Shown: piece by piece, positions 3,966 through 37,794 of the stretch | Numbering within the stretch: the first letter of the stretch is position 1 | Layout: every line of letters begins with the position of its first letter | From: Anaerolineales bacterium | GTDB lineage: Bacteria > Chloroflexota > Anaerolineae > Anaerolineales > UBA11579 | DNA: 64,000 bases | NCBI GenBank assembly: GCA_021463845.1 | Contig: JAJTXV010000004.1 | Span: 62,001 to 126,000 of the forward strand | Direction: 5' to 3' | Made by a program: the position numbers and the translations under genes | Notes under the pieces: model-generated | Database searches by the model: none | What the model was told of the DNA's origin: nothing | The model's input: only the letters and a program-made list of their open reading frames with translations

Positions 3966-5105
3966 ATGAAGCAATTATTCTTCGCCTGCCTCGTACTGGC
4001 CTGTTTGCTTGCCGCCTGCACGCTGCCAACCAGCGGCGCCACGGCTGAGCCGAGCATTACGCCCAGCCCGTTCGCGCCGTCCGCAGCCACCAACACGCCT
4101 GCGGCAAGCAATACACCGCTAGCCAGCAGCACCCCGACGATCACGCCCACCCCGGCGCCGCAGCCGGCTGGTTTCACCAGCGGCCTGCTGCGCGCCTGGG
4201 TGCAGCCCGTGGGGTACATCGCTGATCAGTGTGAGTACCTGGCCAAACGCTGGGACCCAGACGGCAGCCAGCCGGGCACGGTTGTGGCGCCGATCATGTA
4301 TCACAGCATCCTACGCGGCAACGCCGTGCCGACCCTCTCGCAGGACATCAACGAGGTCACCTTTTATCGCATTGTGGAGGTGGCGCGCGAACTGGGTTTC
4401 GAAGCCATCACCAGCCAGCAGCTGGTAGATTTTTTGCACACCAACACCGCCATCCCGCCGCGCAGCATGCTCCTGATCCTGGATGACCGCCGGGCCGGCA
4501 CCGCCCAGGAATACTTTCTGCCGCTATACGAAGAATACGGCTGGCGCACTGTGCTGGGCTGGATCATTGGGGACACCGACCAGCGCACCGGAGAGAACAG
4601 CAGCGAAAGCCTGTGGGACTGGATCGAGCGCCTGAACGACACCGGCGCGTTCGATGTGCAGTCACATGCGCTCAACCACATCCCGATCGTAGGCGGTGAG
4701 AGCGCCGAGTTCCTGCGCAGTGAGCTGGGCGACAACATTCCCATCCTCGAGGAGCACTTCGGCCAGCGCCCGGTGGCGCACATCTGGACCGGCGGCAACT
4801 TCAGCGCGGCTGGCGTGGATATGCTGGAGGAGCTGGGTTACGCGATCGGCTTCACGGTGTACTCACGCGGCCCGATCCAGTTCAACTGGGTGCCGCAGGG
4901 CGAAGAGGAACGCGCCATCGGCAAGCCGCTGCTGCTGCTGCCGCGCTATTGGGACAGCGCGGCAGAGCTGAACCTGCGTCAGGCGGCCGAGATCGGCGAT
5001 GCGGCCCAGCAGTTCGCCCGCGCAAACTATGCGGCGGAAGCCGCATGGTTTGCACAGAACTGCGGCGGCGAGCTGCCGCCGCTGAGCGCAGTGTTTGACG
5101 AGTAG
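3966..5105 (+). CDS. Lipoprotein, polysaccharide deacetylase-like
   Basis: Lipobox LAAC, Thr/Pro/Ser-rich linker, then APIMYHSI..LILDDRRAGTAQEYFLPLYEEYGW..DVQSHALNH; carbohydrate esterase 4-like motifs. Confidence 0.7.
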   Translation: MKQLFFACLVLACLLAACTLPTSGATAEPSITPSPFAPSAATNTPAASNTPLASSTPTITPTPAPQPAGFTSGLLRAWVQPVGYIADQCEYLAKRWDPDGSQPGTVVAPIMYHSILRGNAVPTLSQDINEVTFYRIVEVARELGFEAITSQQLVDFLHTNTAIPPRSMLLILDDRRAGTAQEYFLPLYEEYGWRTVLGWIIGDTDQRTGENSSESLWDWIERLNDTGAFDVQSHALNHIPIVGGESAEFLRSELGDNIPILEEHFGQRPVAHIWTGGNFSAAGVDMLEELGYAIGFTVYSRGPIQFNWVPQGEEERAIGKPLLLLPRYWDSAAELNLRQAAEIGDAAQQFARANYAAEAAWFAQNCGGELPPLSAVFDE

Positions 5106-5172
5106 GCCAGGCGTAGCATGGTGGCTGCGAGCAACATACACCCTGCGAGTAGCTAACTCAAGCTCAACATAG

Positions 5173-5250
5173 AAGACATGGCTGCAAGGATCCTTCGCTG
5201 GACTGGCCTCAGCGGTCCGATGTAGCTGTCTTCACCCGCTCAGGATGACA
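5173..5250. repeat. Intergenic repeat module (AAGGATCCTTCGCTGG...CCCGCTCAGGATGACA)
   Basis: Close copy at 58810-58890. Confidence 0.75.
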
Positions 5251-5260
5251 CATCGCATAA

Positions 5261-5293
5261 AAAAACCGCCCGCACAATGTGCGGGCGGTTTTT
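5261..5293. terminator. Bidirectional intrinsic terminator between convergent genes
   Basis: 15-bp perfect arms AAAAACCGCCCGCAC / GTGCGGGCGGTTTTT, loop AAT, between deacetylase(+) and rpoC(-). Confidence 0.92.
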
Positions 5294-5301
5294 GGTTTTG
5301 C

Positions 5302-9639
<4,338 letters not shown>

Positions 9640-9805
9640 ATGTGCGGCCTCCAATGATTCAGATACAGCGAAAAGCGAACCACTACTCCGTCTGACGTCC
9701 TACGTTCCCCCAAAGCTCGGACCTTTGATCCAGTCAGGCAGTGCAGCGTGCGCTCTGCAGTTTCTTGTTAATCGAACAATTGTGCTATTTTTGAGACAAA
9801 CCAAA

Positions 9806-9839
9806 GCAAGCGCTTCGAGGCATCTCCTCAAGCGCTTGC
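9806..9839 (-). terminator. Hairpin, putative terminator/attenuator between the histidine kinase gene and rpoC
   Basis: GCAAGCGCTT C GAGG CATCT CCTC AAGCGCTTGC; 10+4 bp stem, minus-strand continuation TTTGGTTTG. Confidence 0.6.
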
Positions 9840-9913
9840 TTGCTCTCAGCACTATTCGATTTGTGTTCGTGAAGGATTATACCAACCAAAAACAGAGAGT
9901 CAAGGCGTGCAGA

Positions 9914-12900
9914 CTAGGAGTCTGTGAGAGGCAGCTGACAGTAGAAACTGCTGCCTACCCCGAGGTCACTCTCGGCCCAGACCTTGCCCTTATGACGCTG
10001 GATGATGGAGCGCACGATGTGCAGGCCGGTGCTGGCGGCCTGGCCCTCGCGGCGCTCAAAGATGCGCGGCAGGTCCACCGGGGCGATTCCTGCCCCGCTG
10101 TCCTTGACCCGTAGCACCACCGCGCCGTCAGCATAGCTGGCGCCCAACCGCACCGCCCGCCCACGCGGGCTGAAGCGGATGGCATTGTCGACGAGATAGA
10201 AGACGGCACGCTGCAGCAGCGTGCGGTCGGCCCGCAGCAGGCGTTCGGCGCCTTCGGCTGGCTCCAGGACCAGCTCGATCTGCTTCTGGCGCGCCTGCGG
10301 GGCGGCCTCATCCAGCACGGCCTGCAATACTTCGCTCAGGGCCAGGCTCTCCAGGCGCAGACCTTCGGCCTCCTGCATGCGGTCGGCCGCAAGCAGGCTG
10401 GCGGAGAGGCGCGTGATCTGCTCTATGCTGGCATCGATCTTTTGCACATAACCTTTTTGCTGATCGTTCAACGGGCCCAGCACGCTGAGCATGGATACAT
10501 AGCCACTAACCATCTTGAGCGGATCCTGCAGATCATGCCCGACGGTGCTGAGCGCTTCCAGCCGGGCTGATTCCAGTTTCTTGGATTGGGTTACATCCTG
10601 CAAGGTGCAGACAAAGCCCAACAGCTCCGGCCCGGCCCACAGCGGGTTCAGCGTGGCTTCGTAGGCGGCCTGGTCGATCTGCACTTCAGCGCTGTGCGGC
10701 CGCGGCCCGGCGGCGCGCAGCAAGCTTAACAGTGAGCGCTCCGTAATGATGCGCTCGGCGGGCACACCCAGCGGCTGGTCCGGGCGCAGACGCAGAATGC
10801 GGGCCGCGGCCGGGTTGGCGAATACCAAATTCTGCCCGGCATCCAACATCAGCATTGGCTGCGGGTCGGCCTGCAGCACCGCTTCCAGGCGCTGCTGGCC
10901 CAGGCGGGCCTGCAAATATTGGCGCGCATTGGTGGCGGCGGTGGAGGCCTGGGCGGCCAGAGTTTCCAGGTAGCTCACCGCGCCGCTGCCGGGGGCGAAC
11001 TGCTGCGGCTGGTCATAGGCCAGCCACAACGCGCCCAATTGCTTCTTGCCATCCTTCAACGCGAAGGCGGCGACTGAGCCGGGATACGGCGTGCCTTTAT
11101 CCACCTTCAAGCGCGCACGCGCCGGGTTGGATAGCAGCACCTGCTCCTGGCTGCTGGTGAGCGCCAGCATCTGGGCATCCAGCGCTTCGTAGCGTTCATA
11201 GCCTTCGCCCTTGCCAAAACTGAGGCCGCTGCTGCCGTTCTCGCCTAAAAATACCAGCCGCGCCAACGATGCGCCGCTAGCCAGGGCGGCTTCAAGCAGC
11301 GGTTCGATATGGCTGCGCACTTCCAGGCTGGATGACAGGCCGTGGCTCAGCGCCAGCAGGCGCTGAGTTTCCTCCGTACGTGTTAGCACGGCGCGGCGCA
11401 TGACCTCGAATGCCGAACCCAGCCGGCCGACTTCATCCGTACCTTTGACTGACAGCGGGGCGCCCAGGTCACCGGAGGCGATCCGCTGGGTCTCGGCAGC
11501 CAGGGTTTGTAATGAGCCGCTGACGGTTTGCAGGCTGCGGCGCAGGAGCATATAAGCCACCGCCACAAGCAGCAGCAAGACGCCGACGATCGGCAAAGCA
11601 ACCTGCAGCGCCAACTGCTGCGACAGGCTGACCGGCCAGCGCGCCACCACCGCCCAATTGCTTCCCGGCACCGGCTGATAGTGCACCTGCAGCCGCGTAC
11701 CGTCGGAGGCGGCTTCTTCGTAGGCTTGGGGGCTGGCGCCTGCTGGCCCGTTGTAGGGCTGCAGCACCGCGGCAGCGAACGGCGCCATGACGATCTGGCC
11801 TTGCGCGTCGATCAGCAAGGCTTGCGCGCCCAGGGCGTTGATGCTTTGCAGGCTCTGCACCACCGGGCGGGCAAAGGGATTTACATGCAGCGCGGTGCGC
11901 CCCACCAGCACGTTGCGCACCTGGTTGTTGCTGTTGCGCACCGCCGCCACGAAGACCAGCTGGGCCGAAGTCTGCTCGGCGCCGGCCGCGGGCGGGGCGC
12001 TGAGGATCTGCAGCGAGACGCCCTGGATCGCCAGCGCCACCGCGTCGAGCTCGGCCTGGCTGGGCTGCATGCGAGCGTACTCGGCGGCGGGGATCCCGGC
12101 GACCGAGTTGCCGCCGGTATCCAGCAGGCTGAGCTGCTCAAAGTACGGCGCGCCGTTGAGCTGGGCCTGCAGCAGGCCGCTGGCCTGCTCCGGCGAGGCG
12201 TCAGCCAGGCGCGTGTCGGCCGCCAGCTGCAAGATCAGGTTCTGGCCGGTCTCGAGCACGAACGGCACTGAGTCAGCCGCGATCTGGACATTGTTGGTGA
12301 TACGGTCAGCGAATAACTGCTGCGCGCCGCGCCCCACTGTCCACCAGGTGAGGGCGCCCATCACCACAAAGGCCAGCAAGGCCAACGGCGCCAGGGCGAA
12401 CAGAAAGCGGGCTTCCAGGCTGCGCTCGCTGGGTGCGGGCTCACTGGCGCGTTCCAGGCGGGGCTGGCGGGCCTGAACAACCTGCAGCGCAAGCGCGCCC
12501 AGCAGCAGAGGGACGGCGACGGCCAGGGCGGCGCCGGGCAGGCGCGAAAGCGCAAAGTCGAAGCTGACCAGCCAACTGGGCGAGACCCAAAACAGGGCCG
12601 AGCCAATATAAAGAACGGGATACAGCAGCGAGAGCACACCGGCGGCCACCAGCGGCTGGCGCAGCCAGGCGAACAAGGCCGTGCCGTAACGCTGGCTGCG
12701 CAAAAAGGCGAAGGCAGCCGCCAGGGCAGCAGATTCCAGCGGGGTGAAGGGGCTGCGCGTGTCCCAGGCGGCCAGCAGCCAGCCGCCGAGTGCGGCCAGC
12801 GCGGTGGCCGCCGGGGCTCCATACCAGAGCAGGGCCAGCATCCACGGCAGGGCCAGTAGCGGCGCGATCAGCGCGCCGCGGGCAGGCACGCCGAGGGCCG

Positions 12901-13845: not shown

Positions 13846-15528
13846 CTAGCGTGTGTCTCCACTTGAATTGGCTGTTTCGTCCTGCGGCAGCAGGTCGCTG
13901 GCCGCCCACAGAATGATGTGCTCGTGTGTTTGCGGCGCCTTGCGATACAGCAGCCAACTGATGCTGCTGGCCGGCGCATGCTGCCAGCCAGCCGTGCTGC
14001 TGAGCAGGAAGCTCTGGCCGCGGTAGGCGCTGGCTTCGGCCGGCTCAGCTTCGTTGGCCAGGGTAATGATGAGCGGTGCGCTGCTGCCGGATGGCGCGGC
14101 GGGCAGCTGGCGCAGCAGCCAGGCCAGCGCAGCGCTATTCACGCGCAGGTCCACGCTCAGCGCGCCGGGCTGCCCGGCGGCATAGTTGGAAAGATCTGTC
14201 AGGCTGTCTTGCAGCAGATCGAGCTGGCCGGCGGCCGGGCCAGGCGCCCACAACTCGGCGCCGCGGGGTGATTCTGAATTCGCAAAGCGGGTCGCGCCCG
14301 CCAAAGCGAACAGCGCGAAGAACAAGCCCAGCCCCCACACCAGGCCGTGAATGGCGGCCTGGGCGGACCAACCCAGCCCGATCAGCAAACTGGCGACCAC
14401 GCCCAAGGCCACCACCCCCAGAGCGACGAACATGTATGAACGCACCAGCTCTGGGATGGCCTCGTTGCTGGGAATACGGGCCAGCGACAGGATCAAAAAG
14501 GACAGCAAGACCGACACCAGCAGCGCCTGTCCCCAGGCCGCGACCGGCTCGTCTTGCGGGACAGATAAATAACGGCCGATGGCCTGGGCGGCCAGCGCCC
14601 ACAACGGCACCAGCGCCCACAGCAGATCGGCCACTTGGCGGCCGGGGTAGAGCAGCACGAGCGCCAGTGCGATGGCTGCAAACAAGCTCAGCAAGCGGCC
14701 GGCAAGATCAGTATCGCGCCAGGCCAGCGCCGCGCCCCATACGCCGAACAACACCGCGGGCAAACCATAGCCCAGCAGCGCGAACAGCACCTTGAGGGCG
14801 CTGATCCCCGAGGGCTGGGTCCACCCGGAGACGAAGCTGACCAGCGGCGCAGTGATGCTGCCCAACCCGGCCGGCACCTGCAGGAACAGCGTGCTGCCCA
14901 ATACCAGCACGGCGGCGGCAGCCACGGCGGCCGGACGCCACGCAGCCGCGGGCACGCGCGCGTTGCTCACGAAGAACGCCCACACCAATATCATGGCGAA
15001 CAGGCCAACATACACACTCGGTGCACTGAGCAGGGCCAGCCCCAGCATGGCCCCTGCCAGCACAAAGCGCTGGTGGCGCCAGGCAGTCAGCGCCAGCAAG
15101 CTGGCCGCCACGGCCAGCATCTGGCCGCTGGCCACGCGCGAGACGGCCACCAGGCCGGGGTCCAGCGCCAAACCGAGCGCCAACACCAAGGCCGCCGGGC
15201 GGCCGAGCACATCCCGCCAAAAGTACGGCAGCACCACCAGCAGGACGCCAAACAAGGCCGGCCACAGACGTGCGGCAAATTCGCTGCTGGGCAGGATGGA
15301 GAAGAGCGCGGTTGTCAGCAAGGTATAAGCTGGCTGGTCGCCAATTTCATCAGCGCCGATCTCGGCACCACCACCTTGCGCCAGCGCATAGGCTGGCAAG
15401 GCGGCCGCAGCCTCGTGCTCGTTGAGCGGCAAGCCACCCAAACTGCCAAAGCGCAACAACACCGCCAGGATGGCGATGGCTACATAGGCTGCGGTTTCAA
15501 TGCTGAAAGGAGGGGTCTGGCGCGCCAT
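13846..15528 (-). CDS. Polytopic membrane protein, GT39/PMT-like (TIGR03663-type candidate)
   Basis: N-term RFGSLGGLPLNEHEAAAALPAYAL followed by many hydrophobic helices; adjacent to a YYY-domain protein. Confidence 0.6.
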   Translation of the reverse strand: MARQTPPFSIETAAYVAIAILAVLLRFGSLGGLPLNEHEAAAALPAYALAQGGGAEIGADEIGDQPAYTLLTTALFSILPSSEFAARLWPALFGVLLVVLPYFWRDVLGRPAALVLALGLALDPGLVAVSRVASGQMLAVAASLLALTAWRHQRFVLAGAMLGLALLSAPSVYVGLFAMILVWAFFVSNARVPAAAWRPAAVAAAAVLVLGSTLFLQVPAGLGSITAPLVSFVSGWTQPSGISALKVLFALLGYGLPAVLFGVWGAALAWRDTDLAGRLLSLFAAIALALVLLYPGRQVADLLWALVPLWALAAQAIGRYLSVPQDEPVAAWGQALLVSVLLSFLILSLARIPSNEAIPELVRSYMFVALGVVALGVVASLLIGLGWSAQAAIHGLVWGLGLFFALFALAGATRFANSESPRGAELWAPGPAAGQLDLLQDSLTDLSNYAAGQPGALSVDLRVNSAALAWLLRQLPAAPSGSSAPLIITLANEAEPAEASAYRGQSFLLSSTAGWQHAPASSISWLLYRKAPQTHEHIILWAASDLLPQDETANSSGDTR

Positions 15529-15576: not shown

Positions 15577-18006
15577 TTACGGAACTGCGTAGATGCTGAC
15601 CGTGCCGTTCTGGAACACCAGCGGCAGGCGCGCCTGGAACTTGGCTTCGTTCACAGGATAGGCAGCGCGCTCAAGATCGCCCACGACCACATAGTCAATG
15701 TTGTAGCGCTGTAAGATCTCACTCGCCGTCGCCCAGTCACCGGTGGCATACAGGCTTTCGATGGCGCCAATGCGCCCGTAGTCCACATTGCCGCCGCGCC
15801 ATTGGCCCTCATGGCCCGGCCAGCCCATCACATTTTGCATGCCGGTGAATGTAGCGTAGCGAGCGTAGGCGCTGTAGCTGCCGCCCACCGCCTCGACCAG
15901 CACACCGGGTTGCGCCGCCTGCAGCCAGGCGATCGCCTCGCGGGCATCTGGCGGCAAATGCATGCTGCCGTCCAGAGTGAGCGGCTGGCTCTCGGGGCGG
16001 CTGGCCACGTCGGCAAAGGCGTAGGCCGGATAGACCAGGCCCGCTCCCACCGCGGCGAACAGCACCAGCGCGGCCGCCAGGCGCGCCGAGCGGCGCAACT
16101 CCAGCATCAGCACCGAGATCCCGAAGGCGGCCACCACGCTCCATAGCAGCCAGGCCTGGTAATAGAACTTAAAGACGGTGTTCATGCGCGTGCCAAACTG
16201 GTCACGCAGGTAGATGAACTCGGGCGCAGTCACCAGTAGGGCCGCCACCAGCGCCATCAGCAGTGCGAAGTGGCCGGCTTTCTCTGCAGGCTGTTTGCTG
16301 CGAGCGGGCTTGCCCGCCGCTGCCAGCAGCCCGCCCAACAGGCCCAGCACCGCGATCAGTGTCAGCCAGCCGCCCGGGCCGGCAAAGCGGCGACGCAGCG
16401 ATTCGGCGAACAGGCTGCCGAGGTCCGGCGCGCCCAGGTCGCTCAAGATCGCCGAGCCGAGCGGCGTGCCGCCCAGCACGGCGGCGTACAGCCAGGCCAG
16501 CACCAGCGAGCCGAGCCATAGCGCAGCCACGAAGGCCAGGCTGTATAGCAGGGCCTTGGGCAGGCCGGCCCAACCGCGCTGCTTCCACTGCCACAGCGCC
16601 CACAGCAGCACCGGCGCCAGCAGGGTTACGAACATGATCCACAAATGCGTGCCGCGCGTCGGCGTCAGCAAGTTGGGCAGGATCCCGCCAGCCTGCGAGG
16701 TGAAGCCAATAAAGAAGGGCAGGAACAGCAGGATGCCACTCACCCCCACCAGCACCACCAGATTCAGGAATTCGTTCAGACGTTCCCGCGCCCAACCTTC
16801 CTGGGTTACCTGGCGCAGCACATACGCGCCTGCAAACAGGATGGCATAGATGGGCAGGTCCCAAATATTCAGGAACGCTAAAGCGCCGATCACCAACGCG
16901 GCGAAGGCGAGCGATTCTTCTTTAATGTACAAGCCCATGCGCGGCTTCTTGCGCTCACTGCCACCGAGGTACGTGTTCAGCGCCACACCGGTGGCCAACA
17001 GCACGAATGGGATCGAGAGCACATGCGGGTGCAGGTCGCCCAGCACGAACGAGAAGGCCGGGAATTCGTCGATCAGCTCCTGCTCGCCGCCGTCGAAGGT
17101 GCGGTCATTGATCACGCGCGAGGCGCGCCACCACCACCATGACCCTGTATCAAAATAGCGCGGCACCCAGCGCGGCTCTTCTACCGGTGGATTGACCAGC
17201 TCCTTGACATCCAGCCAGGCCCACAAAGCGGACTGGCTCTCACCGACCGCGTTGGTTTCCCAGAACCAATGCCGCGCATGCGCGATCTCCAGCGGGCCTT
17301 CAGCATTGCCCATCACCAACATGAGCAGCGGGGCCAGGCCGGCCAGCCAACGGGCCGTGCGCACCAGGGCCGGCTTGTAAACGGTCAGCAGGTTATAGGC
17401 CAGGCCGTATGCGGCCGCGGCCGCCATCGCAAATACATTGGCAACGCCCAAATTGAAAGCTATGGCTCCCGGGATGCTGAGCAGCTTGGCCTTCATGGCC
17501 ACCATCAGGAAGCCAAAGTAATAGTACGAAATAGAAAAACCCGACAGCCAAGGATCCTGTGGCGGCATGCTGGGCGACTGCAGAATGGCGTTGATGAACG
17601 CCAACTCCATTGGCTTTTCAGTACCCTCCACCCGCGGATAGCTGGCCCGCATCCACAGCATGAAGACGAACGCCAGCACGAAGACCAGTTCGGTGGCCAG
17701 GATCTGGCCGCGCTGCGCCCGCAGCCAGGCGCCTAGTGCGCCGTCGGGCTGGCTGCGCCAGGCCCACAGCGCCAGCCCGGCCAACAGCAGCAAGGCGGTC
17801 AGCAGCCCGGCGGCGTTGTTGGCCAACAGGCCAAAACTGCTCAACAGCCAGAACACGAAGCCCCACAGTAGCAGGGCCAGCGGGCGCAGCACAGCGTAAC
17901 CGCGCTCCGGCAGCGCCAGCAACAGGCGGTACGCAATCGGCAATGCCAGCCAGCTCAGGCCGGCTAGCAGCAGATACCAGGAAACAATGTAGAGTATTTC
18001 GCTCAT
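15577..18006 (-). CDS. DUF2298 / Chlor_Arch_YYY membrane protein (single-module)
   Basis: SGFSISYYYFGFLMVAMKAKLLSIPGAIAFNLG, GDLHPHVLSIPFVLL, TRMNTVFKFYYQAW, YARYATFTGMQNVMGWPGHEGQWRGG. Confidence 0.87.
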   Translation of the reverse strand: MSEILYIVSWYLLLAGLSWLALPIAYRLLLALPERGYAVLRPLALLLWGFVFWLLSSFGLLANNAAGLLTALLLLAGLALWAWRSQPDGALGAWLRAQRGQILATELVFVLAFVFMLWMRASYPRVEGTEKPMELAFINAILQSPSMPPQDPWLSGFSISYYYFGFLMVAMKAKLLSIPGAIAFNLGVANVFAMAAAAAYGLAYNLLTVYKPALVRTARWLAGLAPLLMLVMGNAEGPLEIAHARHWFWETNAVGESQSALWAWLDVKELVNPPVEEPRWVPRYFDTGSWWWWRASRVINDRTFDGGEQELIDEFPAFSFVLGDLHPHVLSIPFVLLATGVALNTYLGGSERKKPRMGLYIKEESLAFAALVIGALAFLNIWDLPIYAILFAGAYVLRQVTQEGWARERLNEFLNLVVLVGVSGILLFLPFFIGFTSQAGGILPNLLTPTRGTHLWIMFVTLLAPVLLWALWQWKQRGWAGLPKALLYSLAFVAALWLGSLVLAWLYAAVLGGTPLGSAILSDLGAPDLGSLFAESLRRRFAGPGGWLTLIAVLGLLGGLLAAAGKPARSKQPAEKAGHFALLMALVAALLVTAPEFIYLRDQFGTRMNTVFKFYYQAWLLWSVVAAFGISVLMLELRRSARLAAALVLFAAVGAGLVYPAYAFADVASRPESQPLTLDGSMHLPPDAREAIAWLQAAQPGVLVEAVGGSYSAYARYATFTGMQNVMGWPGHEGQWRGGNVDYGRIGAIESLYATGDWATASEILQRYNIDYVVVGDLERAAYPVNEAKFQARLPLVFQNGTVSIYAVP

Positions 18007-18009
18007 CAG

Positions 18010-21000
18010 TTATTGCGCCAGCACTTCGTACACAACCGTATCGCCGATGCGGAAGATCTCGCGCCACAAGCGGCCGTCCTGGGCCTCAAACTTCGCCAGC
18101 CCCGCGTCACTATATACGGCATGCTCCATCTGCCCCACGATGATATAGCCCACGCCATATTTCTCCAACAAGCGCTGCGCCTCAGCGATGTCGGTCGTCT
18201 CGTAGAACTGGTTCACATCCCCCATGCGGCCCCACACATCATTGCCGGGCACAAATTCGCGCTGCTGGCGCTGGTGGTGGTTCCAGCCCAGCACGGCGGG
18301 CAGGCCGGTGTTGATGGCGTAGCGTCCTCCCCAGCGATACTCGCTGACATAGCCTTCGATGATCACCGGCGAACCGCTGATATTGTCCTGCATCCAGCGG
18401 ATGGTTTCATAGTCCTCGCGCAGATCGAGCACGTGGTCGTTTTCGTAATACACCGAGTACTGCATGTACTCCATGCCGTCCAGGCTGCGCGGCGAGCCGG
18501 CGGTCATGCGGTCGTTGATCTTGGCCGTGACGCCCAGCAGCAGGAACAGCGCACCGCTGGTCACCAGCGCCATGCCGGCGCCTTGCCAGACGCCACGCCA
18601 GCCTGGCGTCCACTCCTGCATGGCCTGCCAGCACCAGGCCGCCGCCAGGGCCGCGCTGAGCGCCAGCAGGGTCCACGCCTGCATGTAGAACTTGAAGACG
18701 GTGTTCATGCGCGAGACATCGCCTTGCAGCACCATCACTTCCACGAACAAGGTCAGGAAAATGGCGGTGCCGACCATGAACAAGGTCACACGCTTGATCT
18801 CATCCTGGCCGGGGCGCAGGAACAACAGGCCAACCCACATCAACAGTGGCACCAGCAGCCAGCCCACGACCACGCCGAGGATATGCAGTGCGAACATCAC
18901 CATCAGCACGGCCACAAAGCCCAGCGCCAGCACCCACAGGTACGGCTCCAGCTTGCGTAGCGATGACAACGGCGTATTGGCCAGCCACTGGCGCGTTTCC
19001 CACACCAGCCAGGCCACAATAAAGAAAAGGAAGATGCCCCAGTGCGTGAAGTACGGCCCAAACTCCACATGGATGCCGTCCCACACTCGCAGCGAGCTGT
19101 AGCCGGTGCGGTACCACCAGCTGAAGGGCAAATAGGCCAGGTAGCACAGCGCCGCCAGGGCCGCCGGCCCGGCCAGCACTTTCAGGCTGCGCGGCCAACG
19201 GTCAGTTTTGCCTTGCGGCACATAGCGCCAGATCGCATAGCCGGCGGCGATGGCCGCCAGCAACGCATACACCGGCAGGTCCCAGGTGTTGATCGGGCGC
19301 AGGCTGCCGATGACGATGCCGCCGAACACGAAGACCCAAGCCAGCTGCAGCCAGCCGCCTGCGCCGCGCTGCGCCCGCGCTGCGCCCCAGGCGGAGCTCA
19401 ACACCGCCGAGAGCGCCCAGGCCAACGCCAGCAAGGTGACCGGCAGCGCGATCATATGCGCATGCAGATCAGCATACGTAAATGTGAACAGCGGGAACTC
19501 AGTGATGGGGGCCGACTCGCCCGGCGCGGGGAAGATACGCGTCGGGTTCCAGTACCACTCGCCCAACCCATACGGCAACGAGGCGCCGGATATCGAAAGC
19601 ACAAAGCCGCGCAGCATCCACCACAAGCGGGTGAAGAACGCCGCGCCTTCCACGCTATCACCGCCCAGGCGGGCATAGCCTTCCAGGATCATATACAGGT
19701 TGCCCAGGTTGCCCAGCAGCACGGTGGCGGCCGCGGCCGCCAAGCCCACAGACTGCGGGCGCGGCCCGCGCAGCTTGGGTTGGCGCGCCTGCCAGGCCGT
19801 CCATACATTCCAGGCCAGGCTGTAAGCGCCCAGCGCCAGCATGGCGAACAGACTGGGCAGGATCAGGTTGTAAGCCACCGAAGGCACAATGCCGAGCAGC
19901 TTGACCAGCGAGCCCACCAGCACGAAGCCGTAATAGTAGTAATTGATGTAGCCGCCCGCGAACCACGGGTCATAAGCCGGGAAGCTGGTGCTCTTCAAGA
20001 CCGCATTGAAATAAGCAAAGTCCATCGGCTTTTCGCCGCCCTTGGCCGGGTGCCACAGATCCGGATTGCCCAAACGGATGAGCAGCATGAGTAGGAAGAA
20101 ACCCAGGAACACCAGCTCGGTGCGAATGAACATGGAACGCTGGCTTTTCCACTCCGCTTTGATGCTGGCCCATTGCGGGCGGGCCGCCAGCACACCCAGC
20201 AAGCCGATCAGCAGCGCGAACACGGCCAGCCAGCCGCGGCTGAACACTAGCCCCAGTGAGCCGCCCATCCATCCAAAATAGGCCAGCAGCAGTAAGCCGG
20301 CCAGACGCGCAAGCGGATAGCCGCCATCGCGCAGACCGGGCAGCGCCCAGCGCACCAGCGGGTAGGCCAGCACGCCCAGCACGCCCAGAGCCATATACCA
20401 CACCACCAAACTCACCCACGGCGAAGCATTCACCCATGAATCGCGGCTGAATAACTCAGACCAGGTGCCGCCGGCCTGCTGCTGCGCCAGCCGGTCGGCT
20501 GGCAGCATCAGCGTGGGCGGCACGCCGCCCGAGGCTTCTTTGGGGGTCAGGCGAATGGCCTGGTCCACCGGGGCGGCGGCCAGGATGGCGGCCACATTGG
20601 CCGGGTCGTAGTCGGCCGTCTTGCGGAAGATCAGCACCTTGGTATGGTCGTACACCGTGAAGGCTTCTTCAGCCCACTGGTCATTGATCTTCCACTGGCC
20701 AAGGCGGGGCGCATTCTCAAAAACCTGCACCAGCTCAAAGCCCAGCTGGCCTGCGAACATGCCCGGCTGTGCCTCGGCATAGCACCACTCGATCGTGCGC
20801 TCCGCCGGGCAGCCCAGCAGGGCGCGGTAGTAGGCGATGACCAGCGGGAAGCGCTCCGGGATGCGCGGCAGGCTGCCCCACTGCCGGTTGGAAGAGATGA
20901 ACACGTATTCGGATTGGTCTAGGGTGGTTTGAAAACGCTGCACCTTCTCGGCGTTCTCATCCCAATACATTTCAAAGTTCAGGCCACCCTGGTAAATGCC

Positions 21001-23157
21001 GCCGAAGCCGTCATAGCCATCCATGCGCAGCGGCAGGCCGTCATCCCAACTGGTCTCGTTGGCTAGCGGGCTGCCCTGCACGATCACCTGGGTTTCGGAC
21101 AATGCGCTGAGCTGCAAGTAATAGATGATGCCTTGGCTCAACTCAAAGGGCTGCGGCAGCGGGTAGCTGCCCGCCAGGCCGGGCTGCATGCCCGGTTCAA
21201 TATCCAGCTCAATATCCAGCAAGGCCGGAGCAAATTCCGGCGTCAGGCCGATCTGCAATCGCAGCGGCACAGGCGCCAACACGATCGCTTCTTGCGGGCG
21301 CAGGTACAGCACCACCTGGTCCGGGAAGGTGCCTGGCGAAAGCACGAACTGCAGCTCCAATGATGCGCCCATGCTCAGGCTCAGCGGCTCACTCAGGATG
21401 TCCTGCTCAGGGATCTCTGCACTCTGTGAGGAGCTCAACACCACGCGTTCCAGCACCAGGCGGCCCTCGCCGGCTGGCAGCTGCAAGTTCAACTGGTACA
21501 TCGCCAACGGGTCAGCGAAAGACGTAGCGCCGAGCAGCATGGCTACCGGGGTGGTTGTACCCACCGGCAGGCTTTCGTAATCGACCGCCTGCCCATAGTC
21601 AGCCGTGAGGATCTCGTTCATCTGGCCGGTGCGCAGCATCAGCGCCGTGACCGCCTGCACAGACTTGACGTCAACCTGGGTCAGTACGCCATCCACCCGC
21701 GCCGAGAAACTGGTGAGCAGCGGCGCCACCTGGCGCACACGCGCGTTGTATGGCAGCGAAAGCTGCTGCTTCTGCGCGCCGTCTTCACCTTGCAGATTGA
21801 GGGTCAGCGGGCCAGGGATGTTGTCATAGATCCAGCGGGTGGCCTGCACGCGGGCGTGCGGCTGGCGATACACCTGCACGAAGGCCAGCGACCAAAGCAA
21901 GCCGCCCACCGCGCCCAGCACGGCCAGGCTGACGGCTGCCGGCCGCAGCCAGCCCGCCAGCCGCCCGGCGGCGGGCTGCGCCTTGCGGCGCGGGGCCGCG
22001 CCGCCCAGCCGCCACAACTCGAACACGCCCCGGGCGCCCAGGATGGCCAGCACGGGGTACAGCGGCAGGAAGTAGCGCATGGTGGGGTTGAAGGCGGCGG
22101 ACTGCCACACAAAGTACACAAAACCCCAGCTCCACAGCACGAAGTACGGCTTCAGCCACTCGCCCTTGAGGGCGCGCCAGCCAGCCCACACGAAGCCGGC
22201 CCAGGTGGTGATCGCCAGCGGGATACCGAGCCCCCATTGGACAATATTTTGCAGGCCGAACCACAGCGGGCGGCGTGCCCACTGCATGGAGGGCGGCCAG
22301 TCAGCGTCACCGCTGACCTGGGCCGCCAGCTGGCGCATCGTCTCCACCCAGGCCGGGTTGAGGCCGAAGCCCAGAAAGGCGTACGGCTGGAAGACGCGGA
22401 AGGCCAGCACGCTGACCGCGGCCGCCAGCAAGGTATACAGCACGCCGCGGCCCAGCTCGCTCTCGCGCTGCTCGGCAGGCTGGTTGCTGACGCGGATCAG
22501 CACGGCCAGCGGCAGCGTCAGGCACACCAGGCCTACGCTGGCCTTGGAAGCCATGGCGCTGCCCAGCGCCACGCCAAACCACACGAAGTCCCATATATCG
22601 AAGCGCCCTGCCCGTTTGGAGGGCGTAGCCACGCGCACCGCGAAGTACACCGTCAGCAGTGCGAAGAAATTGACGAAGTTATCCACTGTCCAGAAATGGG
22701 ATTGCTGGATCGGCATCACCGACACGGCATAGAAGAACGCCGCCAGCAAACCCACGCGGCGGTCAAACAGCCGCGTGGCGATCAAATACACTAGGTACAG
22801 CACGCCCAGGTCAGCCACGGCGGAGAGGGCCCGCCCTACCAGCTGCACCTGGCCCGGCATGCCCAGCCACTCCACCGCATAGCGCACGATGATGACCGGC
22901 AGGTTGCCGTACACAAAGAAGCTGTAACCCACATTGTTGGGATTGAGCGGCGATGCCGCTGTGTCGAAGTATTCACCAATGCTGCTGGCCGGCCGCATGG
23001 AGGAGACGACCTGGATAAGGAAGCGCTCGTCCGGGTGCAGCTGCTGGCCCTCGCCCCACTCAATGCCGGTGAAGCGCAGCCAGGCCGCACCCATCAGCAC
23101 CAGCACCAGGGCAAGCTCATACATCCATTTGAAGTGAAGCGTCCGTTTTTGAGGCAT
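18010..23157 (-). CDS. Giant 1715-aa fusion: N-terminal PMT/GT39-like membrane domain + soluble beta-rich region + C-terminal Chlor_Arch_YYY (DUF2298) module
   Basis: N-term WLRFTGIEWGEGQQLHPDERFLIQ; C-half AGGYINYYYYGFVLVGSLVKLLGIVPSVAYNLILPS, YADLHAHMIALPVTLL, SRMNTVFKFYMQAW, GGRYAINTGLPAVLGWNHHQRQQRE. Confidence 0.87.
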   Translation of the reverse strand: MPQKRTLHFKWMYELALVLVLMGAAWLRFTGIEWGEGQQLHPDERFLIQVVSSMRPASSIGEYFDTAASPLNPNNVGYSFFVYGNLPVIIVRYAVEWLGMPGQVQLVGRALSAVADLGVLYLVYLIATRLFDRRVGLLAAFFYAVSVMPIQQSHFWTVDNFVNFFALLTVYFAVRVATPSKRAGRFDIWDFVWFGVALGSAMASKASVGLVCLTLPLAVLIRVSNQPAEQRESELGRGVLYTLLAAAVSVLAFRVFQPYAFLGFGLNPAWVETMRQLAAQVSGDADWPPSMQWARRPLWFGLQNIVQWGLGIPLAITTWAGFVWAGWRALKGEWLKPYFVLWSWGFVYFVWQSAAFNPTMRYFLPLYPVLAILGARGVFELWRLGGAAPRRKAQPAAGRLAGWLRPAAVSLAVLGAVGGLLWSLAFVQVYRQPHARVQATRWIYDNIPGPLTLNLQGEDGAQKQQLSLPYNARVRQVAPLLTSFSARVDGVLTQVDVKSVQAVTALMLRTGQMNEILTADYGQAVDYESLPVGTTTPVAMLLGATSFADPLAMYQLNLQLPAGEGRLVLERVVLSSSQSAEIPEQDILSEPLSLSMGASLELQFVLSPGTFPDQVVLYLRPQEAIVLAPVPLRLQIGLTPEFAPALLDIELDIEPGMQPGLAGSYPLPQPFELSQGIIYYLQLSALSETQVIVQGSPLANETSWDDGLPLRMDGYDGFGGIYQGGLNFEMYWDENAEKVQRFQTTLDQSEYVFISSNRQWGSLPRIPERFPLVIAYYRALLGCPAERTIEWCYAEAQPGMFAGQLGFELVQVFENAPRLGQWKINDQWAEEAFTVYDHTKVLIFRKTADYDPANVAAILAAAPVDQAIRLTPKEASGGVPPTLMLPADRLAQQQAGGTWSELFSRDSWVNASPWVSLVVWYMALGVLGVLAYPLVRWALPGLRDGGYPLARLAGLLLLAYFGWMGGSLGLVFSRGWLAVFALLIGLLGVLAARPQWASIKAEWKSQRSMFIRTELVFLGFFLLMLLIRLGNPDLWHPAKGGEKPMDFAYFNAVLKSTSFPAYDPWFAGGYINYYYYGFVLVGSLVKLLGIVPSVAYNLILPSLFAMLALGAYSLAWNVWTAWQARQPKLRGPRPQSVGLAAAAATVLLGNLGNLYMILEGYARLGGDSVEGAAFFTRLWWMLRGFVLSISGASLPYGLGEWYWNPTRIFPAPGESAPITEFPLFTFTYADLHAHMIALPVTLLALAWALSAVLSSAWGAARAQRGAGGWLQLAWVFVFGGIVIGSLRPINTWDLPVYALLAAIAAGYAIWRYVPQGKTDRWPRSLKVLAGPAALAALCYLAYLPFSWWYRTGYSSLRVWDGIHVEFGPYFTHWGIFLFFIVAWLVWETRQWLANTPLSSLRKLEPYLWVLALGFVAVLMVMFALHILGVVVGWLLVPLLMWVGLLFLRPGQDEIKRVTLFMVGTAIFLTLFVEVMVLQGDVSRMNTVFKFYMQAWTLLALSAALAAAWCWQAMQEWTPGWRGVWQGAGMALVTSGALFLLLGVTAKINDRMTAGSPRSLDGMEYMQYSVYYENDHVLDLREDYETIRWMQDNISGSPVIIEGYVSEYRWGGRYAINTGLPAVLGWNHHQRQQREFVPGNDVWGRMGDVNQFYETTDIAEAQRLLEKYGVGYIIVGQMEHAVYSDAGLAKFEAQDGRLWREIFRIGDTVVYEVLAQ

Positions 23158-23159
23158 GG

Positions 23160-25307
23160 CTAGTTATCCGCGGCAACCAGATACATCAGAAAATCGCGCG
23201 TGGGGGTTTGGCTGGTGAAAGTGGTCAGCACGCCCTGCGGGAACAGTTGCTGCAGCGTGCTGGCAGCAAGTGTATCCTCCGGCTTGAGCAGGTACAGGCG
23301 CGGGGCCGGCACGCTGGCCGTGTTGGCCAGCTGCTCGGGCCACACGGCGTAATCGTGACCGGGCTTGCCCGCCTCCATCGCCACCAGGCGGGTGTCCACC
23401 CAGTGCGGGTAAGCCACCACCCAGGCGCTCTCCAACGAGCCGAAGCTGTTGGCGTAATCAGCGATCGCCTGACCCATCTCGCGGCTGTTCCACGAATTGG
23501 CCGTGTAGTTGCGCGTGTACTCGCCAAAGAACAAGCCATAGTTCAGCAGCGCCACCAGACCCAAAACGCCAACGCCGAGCAATTGCGCCAGGCGCAGACC
23601 CAGCCCGCCGTTGAAACGGGCGCGGATGCTGTGCAATACCGCGTCCAGCGCCAGCGCGCACAGCAAGAACGCCGGGATCCACGCCGCGCTGGCGCGGTTC
23701 ATGGCCGGGTTCTCCTCCGGAAAAGCTAGCGAAAGCGTAGAGGGCAGCATCAGTAGCGGGATGCTGAGCAGCAGGAACAGATCCTGCCATTGGCGGTGGC
23801 GCGCATAGCGCATCACCGCCAGGCACACGCCTAGCAGCAACAGCGCGCCGCTCAGCGGGTCAAAGGCCGGGGCGCGCACCGCGCCTGTCACCCACAAGGT
23901 GCCGCCGGAATAATTGAACAGCCCCAGCCCATTGAGCACATTGCTCACAAAGATAGCGCCGGCTGGGCCGGGGTAGGCGCGTTCGGCTTCGCCCAGGCGG
24001 GTCAGCACGCGCTGGTTCACCAGGGCCGGGTTGTCGATCGCAAAGCGCAGCAGAGGTGTCACCGCCACGATGGCCACTACGGCCAGCAGCACCGCGCCCA
24101 GCAGCGCCTGGCTGCGCGCCTGCGGACTGCTGCGATGCAGCAGGAAGATGGCGACCGCCGCGGCCGCCACCAGGGGCACGATGCGAAAGGCGGTGTAGCC
24201 GTTCAAGCCGATCCCCATGAACAGGCCAGCCAGCAAGAAGTCGTTCAGGCTGCTGCGGCGCAAGCCGCGCAGCAAATAGTACAGGGTCGGCGCGGCCAGC
24301 GCCGCGTACAGGCCAAAGTTCAGGCCCAGGCGTGAGAGCACATTTGGCCAATAGGCCAGGCCGGTGAGCAGCAGGGCGAACAAACCGACCCAGCGGCCGC
24401 CCAACTCCTTGCCCAATAGATACATGAAGGCCAGCGATGCGAAGGCCACCAGCGCGCTGGCCAGCTTCAGGGTCAGGAAGCTTGCGCCGGTGCCGAACAG
24501 GCTCCCGACCCAGACCGCCAGGTAAAACGGCAGCGGCTCGCGGCCCGTATTGCGCTCAAAGAAAATGGAGGTCTTGCCATTCTGAATATCAAGCACATCC
24601 ATCAGCATTTCAGCATGGTCGCTCACCATCTCCGGCGGTGTGACAGTGAGCTGATGAAAGCGGAAAAATGCGATCAGGCCGAAGGCCAGCAGCACCAGCA
24701 CGCTCCAGCGCGAGACGCGCAGCGTGAACTCCGGCTGGCGCACAAACCCGGCCAACCGGGCGCGCAGGCTGGGCTGCCTGGCCGCCTTGGCGGCCGGCTG
24801 CCAGAATGCGTACAGCAGACTGCCAACCGCCCCCAGCCAGCAAGCTACATTGAGCAAATTGAACTGGTTGTTGCCGCTCAACAGGAAAGCTAGCAAAAAC
24901 AGCGCGCCGGCCGCCAGCAGCGGCGTGCGCCGGAAGACGGCCACGCCTTTGTGCGCCTCGGCCGGCGCCGGCTGAGGCAGGCTCCACTCGCCTTCCACAT
25001 AGGCCCAGGCCGCCAGACCCACAGCCAGCAGCAGCACGCTTGCCGCCAGAGCCCAGGCGCCACCTGGCGGGGCGAGCAGGATCTGCCCAGCGAAGAACAG
25101 CACGAACGCTCCTACACTCCGCCAGGGCAGCTGGGCCAGCGTAAAGACTGGCGCAGTTGCCTTGGCCCGCCCGCGGCTGGATGCAGACGGCTTGGCCGCC
25201 GGTTTGCGCACGCGGCTGCGGCCGCTGCGCGGCAGCGGCGGCACGGCAGGCGCCTTTTGCCCGCTGAGCAGCGCCTTCAAATAATCGAGAACACTGGGCT
25301 CTTGCAT
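23160..25307 (-). CDS. Glycosyltransferase family 39-like membrane protein
   Basis: RFHQLTVTPPEMVSDHAEMLMDVLDIQNGKTSIFFERNTGREPLPFYLAVWVG; polytopic. Confidence 0.8.
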   Translation of the reverse strand: MQEPSVLDYLKALLSGQKAPAVPPLPRSGRSRVRKPAAKPSASSRGRAKATAPVFTLAQLPWRSVGAFVLFFAGQILLAPPGGAWALAASVLLLAVGLAAWAYVEGEWSLPQPAPAEAHKGVAVFRRTPLLAAGALFLLAFLLSGNNQFNLLNVACWLGAVGSLLYAFWQPAAKAARQPSLRARLAGFVRQPEFTLRVSRWSVLVLLAFGLIAFFRFHQLTVTPPEMVSDHAEMLMDVLDIQNGKTSIFFERNTGREPLPFYLAVWVGSLFGTGASFLTLKLASALVAFASLAFMYLLGKELGGRWVGLFALLLTGLAYWPNVLSRLGLNFGLYAALAAPTLYYLLRGLRRSSLNDFLLAGLFMGIGLNGYTAFRIVPLVAAAAVAIFLLHRSSPQARSQALLGAVLLAVVAIVAVTPLLRFAIDNPALVNQRVLTRLGEAERAYPGPAGAIFVSNVLNGLGLFNYSGGTLWVTGAVRAPAFDPLSGALLLLGVCLAVMRYARHRQWQDLFLLLSIPLLMLPSTLSLAFPEENPAMNRASAAWIPAFLLCALALDAVLHSIRARFNGGLGLRLAQLLGVGVLGLVALLNYGLFFGEYTRNYTANSWNSREMGQAIADYANSFGSLESAWVVAYPHWVDTRLVAMEAGKPGHDYAVWPEQLANTASVPAPRLYLLKPEDTLAASTLQQLFPQGVLTTFTSQTPTRDFLMYLVAADN

Positions 25308-25366: not shown

Positions 25367-26188
25367 CTAGCGGCGCCGGGCTACATACCAGGTATACGTA
25401 CCCTCAGGATCAGCGCCATGGTTGGCATGCGCCGCAAACAAGCGCTCGGTCAGGCCGAGATTCCAGCGGGCTGGCGCCAGCACCCAACGCCCAAACAGCT
25501 TGCGGGCCACATAGCTCGGCAGGCCAAAGTAGTGCCCCCACTCCAGAGCGTGCAGCGCGGCGGGCGGGAAATAGTGCCACCAGGTTTCTATATCGAAGCC
25601 CGCCTCATCCAGCCGGGCGGCCCACTCCTCGGGCGAGAGCATGTTGACGTGCCGCGAGATGCGCGTGAACAAGCGCACATACCCATTCGCCAATCCCCTC
25701 AACCCCAGCTTGCGCAGCCCGCTGGCGATGGCCAGGTTGTGCGGCCAGCGATGGTTGGGCACGCAGAACAGGAACAAGCCGCCCTTGCGCACCAGGCGGC
25801 CGGTCTCGTTCAGCACCTCTTGCAAATTAGGAATGTGTTCCAAAACGGAGTTACTGAGCGCGCTGGCAAAGTGACCGGCAGGCAGCGGGGCACGGTGCCC
25901 CAGCGCCTGCACCAGGCCGCCATACGCGCCCCAACCCTTAGCTTCCTGCAGGGATACGAAGGCCGGGTCCAGCCCGACATCCAGCTTGTGCGTAAACACC
26001 TGGCTGGCAAAGTGGCCATCCCCGCAGCCAAGGTCGTACACCGGCGCGGTCAGCTCAAAGTCTTTGTAGAAATCGGCCTCGACGGCCCGCAACAGAGCAC
26101 GGAAATAAGGCAGCGCCTGTAGCTGCACCCACCAGTGCTTGTTCTCACCATCACGCGGTGAAGGGGCTGTTTGCGGCGGCAGGCTCAC
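25367..26188 (-). CDS. Class I SAM-dependent methyltransferase
   Basis: VYDLGCGDGHFASQVF..VGLDPAF..SNSVLEHIPNLQEVLNETGRLVRKGG. Confidence 0.85.
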   Translation of the reverse strand: MSLPPQTAPSPRDGENKHWWVQLQALPYFRALLRAVEADFYKDFELTAPVYDLGCGDGHFASQVFTHKLDVGLDPAFVSLQEAKGWGAYGGLVQALGHRAPLPAGHFASALSNSVLEHIPNLQEVLNETGRLVRKGGLFLFCVPNHRWPHNLAIASGLRKLGLRGLANGYVRLFTRISRHVNMLSPEEWAARLDEAGFDIETWWHYFPPAALHALEWGHYFGLPSYVARKLFGRWVLAPARWNLGLTERLFAAHANHGADPEGTYTWYVARRR

Positions 26189-27351
26189 TTGCTGACCTCA
26201 CGCGCGATCTCTTCGAACAGCGCTTCGTGACGCGCTGCGCAGGTCTGCGGGCTGAACTCGGCCCGCAATGCGGCTGCATCGCCGCGATACTTCTCAGGAT
26301 GCGAGAGCACTTCGATCATATTGGCGGCCAGCGCGTCGGCGTCGCCGATCGGCGAGACGAGGCCCATGCCGCTCATGCGCACTGGCTGGCGCACGCCCGG
26401 CAGCGCCGAAGCCACCACAGGTTTGCCGTTCATCATGGCCTCGATCTGTACAAAGCCAAACGTCTCAGTGGAGTTGGTGCTCGGCACCACGAGCAGATCC
26501 AGGCCTTGATAGAACGAGGGCATGTCTTGCATCGGCAGCGTGCCTAGAAATTTCCACTGGCCTTTGCGTTCATACTCCGCGATCAGCGGAAACAGGCGCT
26601 GGGCGTACTCTTCCTCGCCCAACACTTCCTTATATTGGCCCGCAAACCATACCAGTGCATTGGGGAACTTCTCCAGCACGTCCGGCAGGGCCTGCAGCAG
26701 CACTTCCACACCCTTTTCGGCGGCAAAGCGGGTGGCCATAGCGATCACCGGCCGCTTGCCCGCTGGATTGTGCTCGGCCGCAAACGCGGCGGCCGCCCGC
26801 GGCTCGCTTTGCGGCAGCTCCACCGCTGGCGAGATGACGCGCACCTTGGACGCAAAGCGGCGCAGGTACGGCGAATGGCTGGCAAAATCCTCTGTATATG
26901 AAGAGATGCGATGGGTAAAGCGGGCCGCAAGGTCGTTCATGAAGTTGATGACAAAGTTGACGAAGCGGTTGAACAGCCCGGCCGACAGGATCAGGTCTGA
27001 GTGATAGATGATCACGGTTGGCTTCTTAAACAGCCAGCCGCGGATCGCCAAACCGGCCGCATCGAACTGCGGCAGGTGCAGCAACAAAGCATCATGCTTG
27101 CGGGTTTCCTCCCAGGCCAGGCGGCCCAGGCTGGGCATGATGACCCCTTTGCTGATACGCAGGGCCACCGGCACGCGGCGGATGCGCACGCCGTCCTGCA
27201 CTTCTTCCAGCGGCAAGTCCTTCTCGAACTGGGAGGTCAGCACAGTCACTTCGTGCCCGCGCTGCACCAGCGCCTTGGCTAAGCGCTCGGCGTAAATGGT
27301 CAGCCCGCTGGTATGCGGGCGGTAATAGGTCAGGACCGTGAGGATGCGCAC
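26185..27351 (-). CDS. Glycosyltransferase family 4
   Basis: MRILTVLTYYRPHTSGLTIYAERLAKAL..RFAAEKGVEVLLQALPDVLEKFP..VVPSTNSTETFGFVQIEAMMNGKPVVASALPGVRQPV. Confidence 0.93.
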   Translation of the reverse strand: MRILTVLTYYRPHTSGLTIYAERLAKALVQRGHEVTVLTSQFEKDLPLEEVQDGVRIRRVPVALRISKGVIMPSLGRLAWEETRKHDALLLHLPQFDAAGLAIRGWLFKKPTVIIYHSDLILSAGLFNRFVNFVINFMNDLAARFTHRISSYTEDFASHSPYLRRFASKVRVISPAVELPQSEPRAAAAFAAEHNPAGKRPVIAMATRFAAEKGVEVLLQALPDVLEKFPNALVWFAGQYKEVLGEEEYAQRLFPLIAEYERKGQWKFLGTLPMQDMPSFYQGLDLLVVPSTNSTETFGFVQIEAMMNGKPVVASALPGVRQPVRMSGMGLVSPIGDADALAANMIEVLSHPEKYRGDAAALRAEFSPQTCAARHEALFEEIAREVSK

Positions 27352-36504: not shown

Positions 36505-37794
36505 CTACTGTGATGGCCACACGATGTGTGCGCCTAACACTTCTAAGGGAGGTAAAAGGTATACAACCTCGGACGACATTGGATACTCATACAGTACTTC
36601 TGCTGTAGCCAGATCCACTACCACGGCGCTTTCTACTAGAAAAGTATATTCGTCAGGACCCGTAAACCGAAAGCCTACAAAAGCGCTTCCATCCGGACTG
36701 ACGGCCATGGGCAGCACGTTTGGCAGGGTATTTGCCGGCTCACCTTCCACTACTGTGAAAGGTATCTCGGCGGATGGGCTCCAGGCGGAATAGTATTCCG
36801 TTTCGGATCCTTCAATGGTGGCTCCTGCGATCTGTTGCACAAAAAGCAAGTAATCGCCTCGCTGCCACAATGGGAACAGCTTTCCTACATCCGGTAAGAA
36901 GTACTCCCGCTCCAGGGCGCGTTCCGTCTGGAAGGTGGCCACATGCGCCAGCAGCTCCATCGTCTCGCTATCAACCAGGTCGTATTGATAGCGACCGGCG
37001 CTGCGCTGGGAAGACATGTAATCACGCACCTGGCCCAGTTCCGGATGTACACATAGATACCAGCACGAAGGGGAGTTAAAGTCTGGCTTAAGGCCATCGT
37101 GCGTAAGCAAAACCTCGATTGCTTCATATCTAGGGCTGGGCCAAACCGTCTCTTGGCCTGTAGACAGGTCGTAGGTGGTGCGCACATTAGTGTCTACGTA
37201 GCTCAAAATATCTTCTGTGGTGGACCAGTTAACAACGCGAGCATCAGCAACATGCGTTAGATCGCCGGTTGCCAGGCTGTACACCCACAATGAACTGAGA
37301 CCGGCATTGTGCGCTTGGAAGTTCAGCCATTGCTGGCTGGGCGACCAAACCGCCTGCCCGAGAGTGCCCCCAGCAGTCACTTGCGCTGACAGGTCAATCG
37401 CGCGGCTCTCGCCGCTTTCCAGATCATAGATCACCCCCTCACCACCAAAACCAGTGGCGTTGAACAACATGCGACCGTCAGGGGAGAGGGCCATTCTCCA
37501 CGAGTCCTCTATGGAAATGGTCGCCACAACATCCTCGCTGCCTAATTCAATCACGCGGATGACAAGCTGTTCGCCCTCGTAGCCCCACATCGCCAGGCGC
37601 GGGTTCGGCCCGCTGTAGGGCAGTGGAATGTCCGTCGGGCTGGGCTGCGCAGCGGGGTCAGCCGCCACCGTTGCAGTGGCGGCGCTGGTTGCCGTGCTGG
37701 CTTCAGGCTGCGCCGCTGATGTGGCCGCGGGCGCAGAGCTGCAGCCGCACAGCGCAACCAGGCAAAGGAGTGAGATCAGGGCATAGGTTCGCAT
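36505..37794 (-). CDS. Lipoprotein with TolB/WD40-like beta-propeller repeats
   Basis: LISLLCLVALCGCSSAPA lipobox; LSPDGRMLF, SPSQQWLNFQ, VSPDGSAFVGF blade-like segments. Confidence 0.6.
   Translation of the reverse strand: MRTYALISLLCLVALCGCSSAPAATSAAQPEASTATSAATATVAADPAAQPSPTDIPLPYSGPNPRLAMWGYEGEQLVIRVIELGSEDVVATISIEDSWRMALSPDGRMLFNATGFGGEGVIYDLESGESRAIDLSAQVTAGGTLGQAVWSPSQQWLNFQAHNAGLSSLWVYSLATGDLTHVADARVVNWSTTEDILSYVDTNVRTTYDLSTGQETVWPSPRYEAIEVLLTHDGLKPDFNSPSCWYLCVHPELGQVRDYMSSQRSAGRYQYDLVDSETMELLAHVATFQTERALEREYFLPDVGKLFPLWQRGDYLLFVQQIAGATIEGSETEYYSAWSPSAEIPFTVVEGEPANTLPNVLPMAVSPDGSAFVGFRFTGPDEYTFLVESAVVVDLATAEVLYEYPMSSEVVYLLPPLEVLGAHIVWPSQ

Follow-up and report, generated by a model that had tools for sequence, protein, structure and literature searches.

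Among the closest described counterparts of the protein analysed here are several GT-C enzymes. For DPY19, Glu71 (E71) has been proposed as the catalytic base, and the outer dome of this enzyme is common to oligosaccharyltransferases and arabinosyltransferases (PMC10154233). Carbohydrate-binding beta-sandwiches are found in the GT-C enzymes GT136 ORF12, EmbC and AftD (PMC11127046). Agl23 is reported to flip lipid-linked sugars; in liposomes, the purified protein transported lipid-linked oligosaccharide from one side of the membrane to the other (PMC11182771), and the fold alone is therefore no proof of transfer. For the family Chlor_Arch_YYY (TIGR03662; DUF2298, PF10060), no function was found in the open literature searched. 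Members occur in roughly two thirds of the sampled Chloroflexota genomes (TIGR03662 matches in 208 of 301) and in some archaea. Among the matches listed, the frames are roughly 740–990, 1280–1900 and 2100–2870 aa long.

The window, that is, the whole stretch of 64,000 nucleotides analysed, contains a gene (18010–23157, minus strand) that joins a PMT_2-type GT-C unit, an outer domain with two beta-sandwich modules and a YYY/DUF2298 unit predicted to be a second GT-C. The N-half resembles ArnT and PMT (PF13231) in its fold and in having an acidic pair in the first loop, where the first juxtamembrane helix starts, but differs from them in its large outer domain, into which tandem beta-sandwiches are inserted. 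The C-half has its best structural matches in DPY19, AglB/STT3 and AftA and, like DPY19, carries a first-loop Glu; however, it possesses three extra lead-in helices. A GT-C core with an extracytoplasmic beta-sandwich is shared by the N-half with GT136 ORF12, EmbA/B/C and AftD, whereas the modules of the fusion are inserted within the outer domain in 0, 1 or 2 copies. Both the C-half and the next downstream gene are clear members of TIGR03662/PF10060. A GT-C fold is now proposed for this family, and a single YYY unit fused to an N-half with two beta-sandwiches represents a further layout. DUF2298 may already be included in Pfam's GT-C clan, which would limit the novelty of the fold assignment. 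Taken as a whole, the fusion is probably a tethered pair of GT-C transferases that would use polyprenyl-phosphate sugars on the outer face of the membrane at neighbouring steps of one envelope glycan.

The fused frame and its two GT-C units

The gene is one uninterrupted frame of 1715 aa with an ATG start. Every motif quoted in the preliminary description (GIEWGEGQQLHPDERF, GGYINYYYYGF, DLHAHM, RMNTVFKFY and RYAINTGLPAVLGW) is present in its translation, and the strand is newly assigned. All features of the gene and its cluster described below lie on the minus strand.

The membrane core of the N-half (residues 1–446, 21820–23157) is of the PMT_2 type according to PF13231, the AF2 model and Foldseek. 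Residues 102–223 match PF13231 with an E-value of 4.7e-11 and 43.6 bits, above the gathering score of 26.1, so that the homology to PF02366/PF13231 on which the PMT-like reading depended was found through the latter family. For PF02366 (PMT, GT39 proper), the Pfam scan gave no match of the window's fusion protein at E<=0.01; one fused relative passes the threshold of this family (40.6 vs. 22.7 bits). The C-half (residues 914–1712, 18022–20418) had been described as a YYY module, and it exceeds the cut-offs of both relevant families: TIGR03662 over residues 914–1712 (E 3.7e-149, 498.6 bits against 300.25) and DUF2298 PF10060 over residues 957–1498 (E 8e-110, 368.5 bits against 27.8). The YYY signature DPWFAGGYINYYYYGF occupies residues 1063–1078 (19924–19971) in the translation and the orthologue alignment, and RMNTVFKFY, located by translation and comparison of the fused sequences, occupies residues 1483–1491 (18685–18711). 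The halves are connected by a junction segment (residues 861–912, 20422–20577) including the conserved GGTWSELF, in which G897 is invariant and T898, W899 and F903 are almost invariant. The AF2 confidence drops to 55–71 at residues 880–905 of the junction.

AF2 models were built separately for the N-half with its outer domain (pLDDT 93.3, pTM 0.89) and for the C-half (pLDDT 94.0, pTM 0.94). A Foldseek comparison of the N-half model with the PDB yielded 32 matches at E<=1e-3, each of them either a GT-C enzyme or a chain from an oligosaccharyltransferase/translocon complex. ArnT was the best (1.2e-7), and AglB, EmbA/B, STT3, Pmt4, ALG12 and ALG9 were also among them. The C-half gave six matches at the same threshold, GT-C without exception, with CeDPY19 at the top (7.2e-6), followed by AglB (9.5e-5) and AftA (2.9e-4), at an identity of about 11–14%. 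Below this set, the isolated C-terminal globular domain of AglB was matched with a probability of 1.00 and PglB with 0.75, and the first non-GT-C match reached 0.11. The TM-scores of the C-half to solved GT-C structures are modest (0.25–0.38 when normalised to the query length, at best 0.49 when normalised to the target), which supports the fold class and not a detailed superposition. Searches of the PDB sequences with each half using phmmer and profiles gave nothing significant. By sequence family and/or predicted structure, both halves are thus assigned to GT-C folds, in agreement with the initial proposal of two GT-C units, and the C-half is supported as a second GT-C from a family different from that of the N-half.

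For the YYY unit, an outer globular domain at the C-terminus was placed at residues 1550–1712 (18022–18510), where the mixed alpha/beta tail of the model would correspond to the globular domain of AglB 3vu0 (Foldseek probability 1.00, TMt 0.55, about 165 columns). The hhalign comparison of the N-half with the C-half gave 86%, but it aligned hydrophobic stretches that are non-equivalent and is not taken as a sign of recent duplication within the protein.

Candidate active sites, topology and the middle region

Motif counts were based on 83 non-redundant fused sequences. All 83 carry the HPDE motif (residues 41–44, 23026–23037) with the candidate catalytic acid pair; it lies in the N-half's first external loop, and in the model, helix 42–53, the first juxtamembrane helix after TM1, starts at this motif. 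In the YYY unit, GGEKPMD (residues 1040–1046, 20020–20040) is located in the corresponding first external loop. GGE[K/R] is likewise found in 83 of 83 sequences, and helix 1043–1055 starts there, after helix 1007–1030. The Glu equivalent to the candidate catalytic E1042 is also invariant in stand-alone YYY proteins. A second conserved acidic/His motif, DLHAH (residues 1230–1234, 19456–19470), includes D1230 and H1232, which are invariant among fused and stand-alone YYY proteins. Hence, an acidic residue in the first external loop, as is characteristic of GT-C enzymes, occurs in both halves (D43/E44 and E1042), and these residues are the candidates for catalysis suggested by invariance and the models. 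With YYY assigned to the GT-C glycosyltransferases and a specific Glu put forward as a catalytic candidate, DUF2298 becomes directly testable.

The last membrane helix of the N-half (395–431 in the model) runs into the outer domain. Three lead-in transmembrane helices (residues 913–1005, 20143–20421), recognised from the AF2 model and hydropathy, precede the GT-C first helix of the fusion's YYY unit, and the stand-alone YYY paralogue likewise begins with hydrophobic lead-in segments. With the N-half predicted to end outside the cell and an odd number of lead-in helices, both active sites would be located on the outer face. The topology prediction and AlphaFold modelling suggested in the preliminary description accordingly predict both first loops to lie outside.

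Residues 440–880 had been noted as poorly hydrophobic and beta-rich. The region is indeed non-membrane, with AF2 strands from 451 to 846. The soluble middle of the preliminary description is, however, no independent domain: the models and alignments attribute it to the N-half's own outer alpha/beta domain (residues 436–860, 20578–21852), interrupted by two optional beta-sandwich modules. Module A (residues 478–606, 21340–21726) was delimited by length classes and the gap profile, and a large part of it is missing in about half of the fused orthologues. Module B (residues 607–716, 21010–21339) is a tandem copy of A, as the hhalign comparison of the two profiles indicates (99.1%, E 4.6e-19). In the orthologues, the counterpart of residues 470–725 comprises about 30, 135 or 260 aa, corresponding to 0, 1 or 2 modules, and the modules can be regarded as accessory because of this variable copy number. 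The sole recurrent family signal in the middle region is DUF4082; 9 of 39 relatives show it (1e-6 at best), and the window's own copy does not. No CBM family or PDB match was found for the middle region, in which the modules were searched as parts of the larger region. Acceptor binding by the modules is nevertheless plausible by analogy, given the existence of GT-C enzymes with carbohydrate-binding beta-sandwiches, and the carbohydrate binding considered in the preliminary description is possible.

Distribution and history of the fusion

Matches to the fusion were found in 58 of 61 genomes (its own and 60 relatives), many of which carry the same 1700–1800-aa fusion, and 24 full-length orthologues were aligned end to end at 41–92% identity. 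In a scan of the genome collection, nearly all of the best 80 loci belonged to Anaerolineae or Chloroflexi. The fusion is widespread in Chloroflexota. An open frame of this kind could also result from a chimeric assembly of two adjacent genes. The probability of such an artefact is negligible, since the fusion is conserved across independent assemblies: frames of full length, near 1700–1800 aa, also occur in G005 and G007, each assembled as a single contig, two cultured species, Bellilinea caldifistulae and Ornatilinea apprima, carry the fusion, and 83 non-redundant fused sequences are available. Pieces are seen in one genome (G044), which is the reverse situation. The single-frame fusion was thereby confirmed. 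The G044 case (locus L145, contig C196) is a metagenome assembly in which the fusion gene is split into two frames, probably by a frameshift, and it was excluded from the Rosetta-stone evidence.

A more elaborate arrangement was also encountered. The largest length class was examined in genome G166, where a tandem-YYY + TPR protein of 2500 aa starts with a region homologous to the N-half from the window (34% identity, HPDE kept), followed by two copies of YYY and by TPR repeats. This layout, with HPDE in the N-half, is recorded for the 2498-aa protein at 4597–12093 of locus L149, which may represent three GT-C units in one chain.

The Rosetta-stone test asked whether the halves exist elsewhere as separate adjacent genes. 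Two lineages, G060 (a single contig) and RUG13631, encode the C-half orthologue on its own (829 and 821 aa, respectively), at the same cluster position as the fusion; no N-half adjoins it. In a tree of 120 rows, built by a quick method without bootstrap, these separate C-halves nest within the fused clade, and their small group also contains a fused sequence (L129). A secondary loss of the N-half, in one or two events, is therefore most likely. Stand-alone relatives of the N-half (in G060, G035 and G036) form their own clade, have HPDEYG instead of HPDER and are not adjacent to a C-half. Judged from these results, the fusion seems to be ancient and not of recent origin.

The retention of the C-half alone in two lineages makes an obligate coupling of the two halves unlikely; coupled or sequential transfer, as proposed in the preliminary description, may occur but would apparently not be obligatory. 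In a channelled two-step enzyme, a single lipid-linked acceptor would go straight from the PMT site to the YYY site, or YYY would flip a lipid-linked sugar into the PMT half. We consider this arrangement quite unlikely; if true, it would amount to a naturally occurring GT-C machine with two functions, for which no characterised example exists so far. The loss of the N-half in these lineages, which is evidently dispensable in some hosts, favours the possibility that one half is catalytic and the other is a pseudo-enzyme or a scaffold holding the acceptor or a partner. This possibility is unlikely, since neither half shows any variation of its acidic first-loop motif throughout the 83 sequences, contrary to the expectation for a decayed active site. 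For the tethered pair of transferases, the fusion would serve co-localisation and not be required by the mechanism, given that the C-half is maintained where the N-half is missing. Two different GT-C units per chain provide a tractable case for studying whether successive outer-face sugar additions are coupled.

Gene neighbourhood and proposed role

The fusion gene is spaced by 2–3 bases from its neighbours on each side, an arrangement as in an operon. The next gene upstream (23160–25307) encodes a separate PMT_2 glycosyltransferase of 715 aa (PF13231, 37.5 bits), and the next one downstream (15577–18006) encodes a stand-alone YYY paralogue of 809 aa (TIGR03662, 476.9 bits), which forms a clade apart in the tree. 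The cluster at 9914–31309 on the minus strand runs through LepA, a flippase-like protein, an SDR epimerase, GT4, a methyltransferase, PMT_2 and the fusion, and continues with YYY, an Agl23-like protein, cytidylate kinase (Cmk) and a histidine kinase. The GT4 glycosyltransferase (26185–27351) was assigned by the Pfam scan and locus comparison. With small changes, the cluster is kept in Bellilinea, Ornatilinea and the other loci examined, from several genera. The genome contains two TIGR03662 matches only, 15 PMT_2 matches and one GtrA-type gene; no match to STT3 was obtained in the genome searched. GtrA is a proposed family of carrier-lipid-sugar flippases. The content of the cluster and the genome fits envelope glycan assembly from polyprenyl-linked sugars on the outer face, and the conserved cluster offers a concrete entry to the envelope glycans of Anaerolineae, about which little is known.

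Following established GT-C chemistry, each half of the tethered pair would use a polyprenyl-phosphate sugar that has been brought across the membrane and transfer its one sugar onto a growing envelope glycan, lipid-linked or on protein. The two halves would act at neighbouring steps of the same product, as the fusion and the gene neighbourhood suggest, and the paired beta-sandwich modules of the N-half's outer domain would probably position or hold the acceptor.

Two genes downstream of the fusion, a gene at 13846–15528 encodes an Agl23-like membrane protein of 560 aa, a diverged relative of Agl23 (TIGR03663) with 47.7 bits, below the family cut-off of 126.25. Weak GT-C-like similarity is known at the N-terminus of Agl23. 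This neighbour, together with the movement of lipid-linked oligosaccharide by Agl23 in liposomes (PMC11182771), could point to the YYY half as a flippase of lipid-linked sugars feeding a transferring PMT half. Such a role is very unlikely: the Agl23-like protein is distinct from the YYY half, lies outside the fusion and is below the family cut-off, the matches of the C-half are transferases (DPY19, AglB and AftA), with the outer globular domain included, and YYY units are found alone and as tandem copies. Two further frames were recorded. A 429-aa frame at 36505–37794 is without a Pfam match at E<=0.001, and outside the window, a separate gene (G000:C1:372181–374184), contained in a 1188-aa frame, is above the TIGR03663 (Agl23) cut-off.
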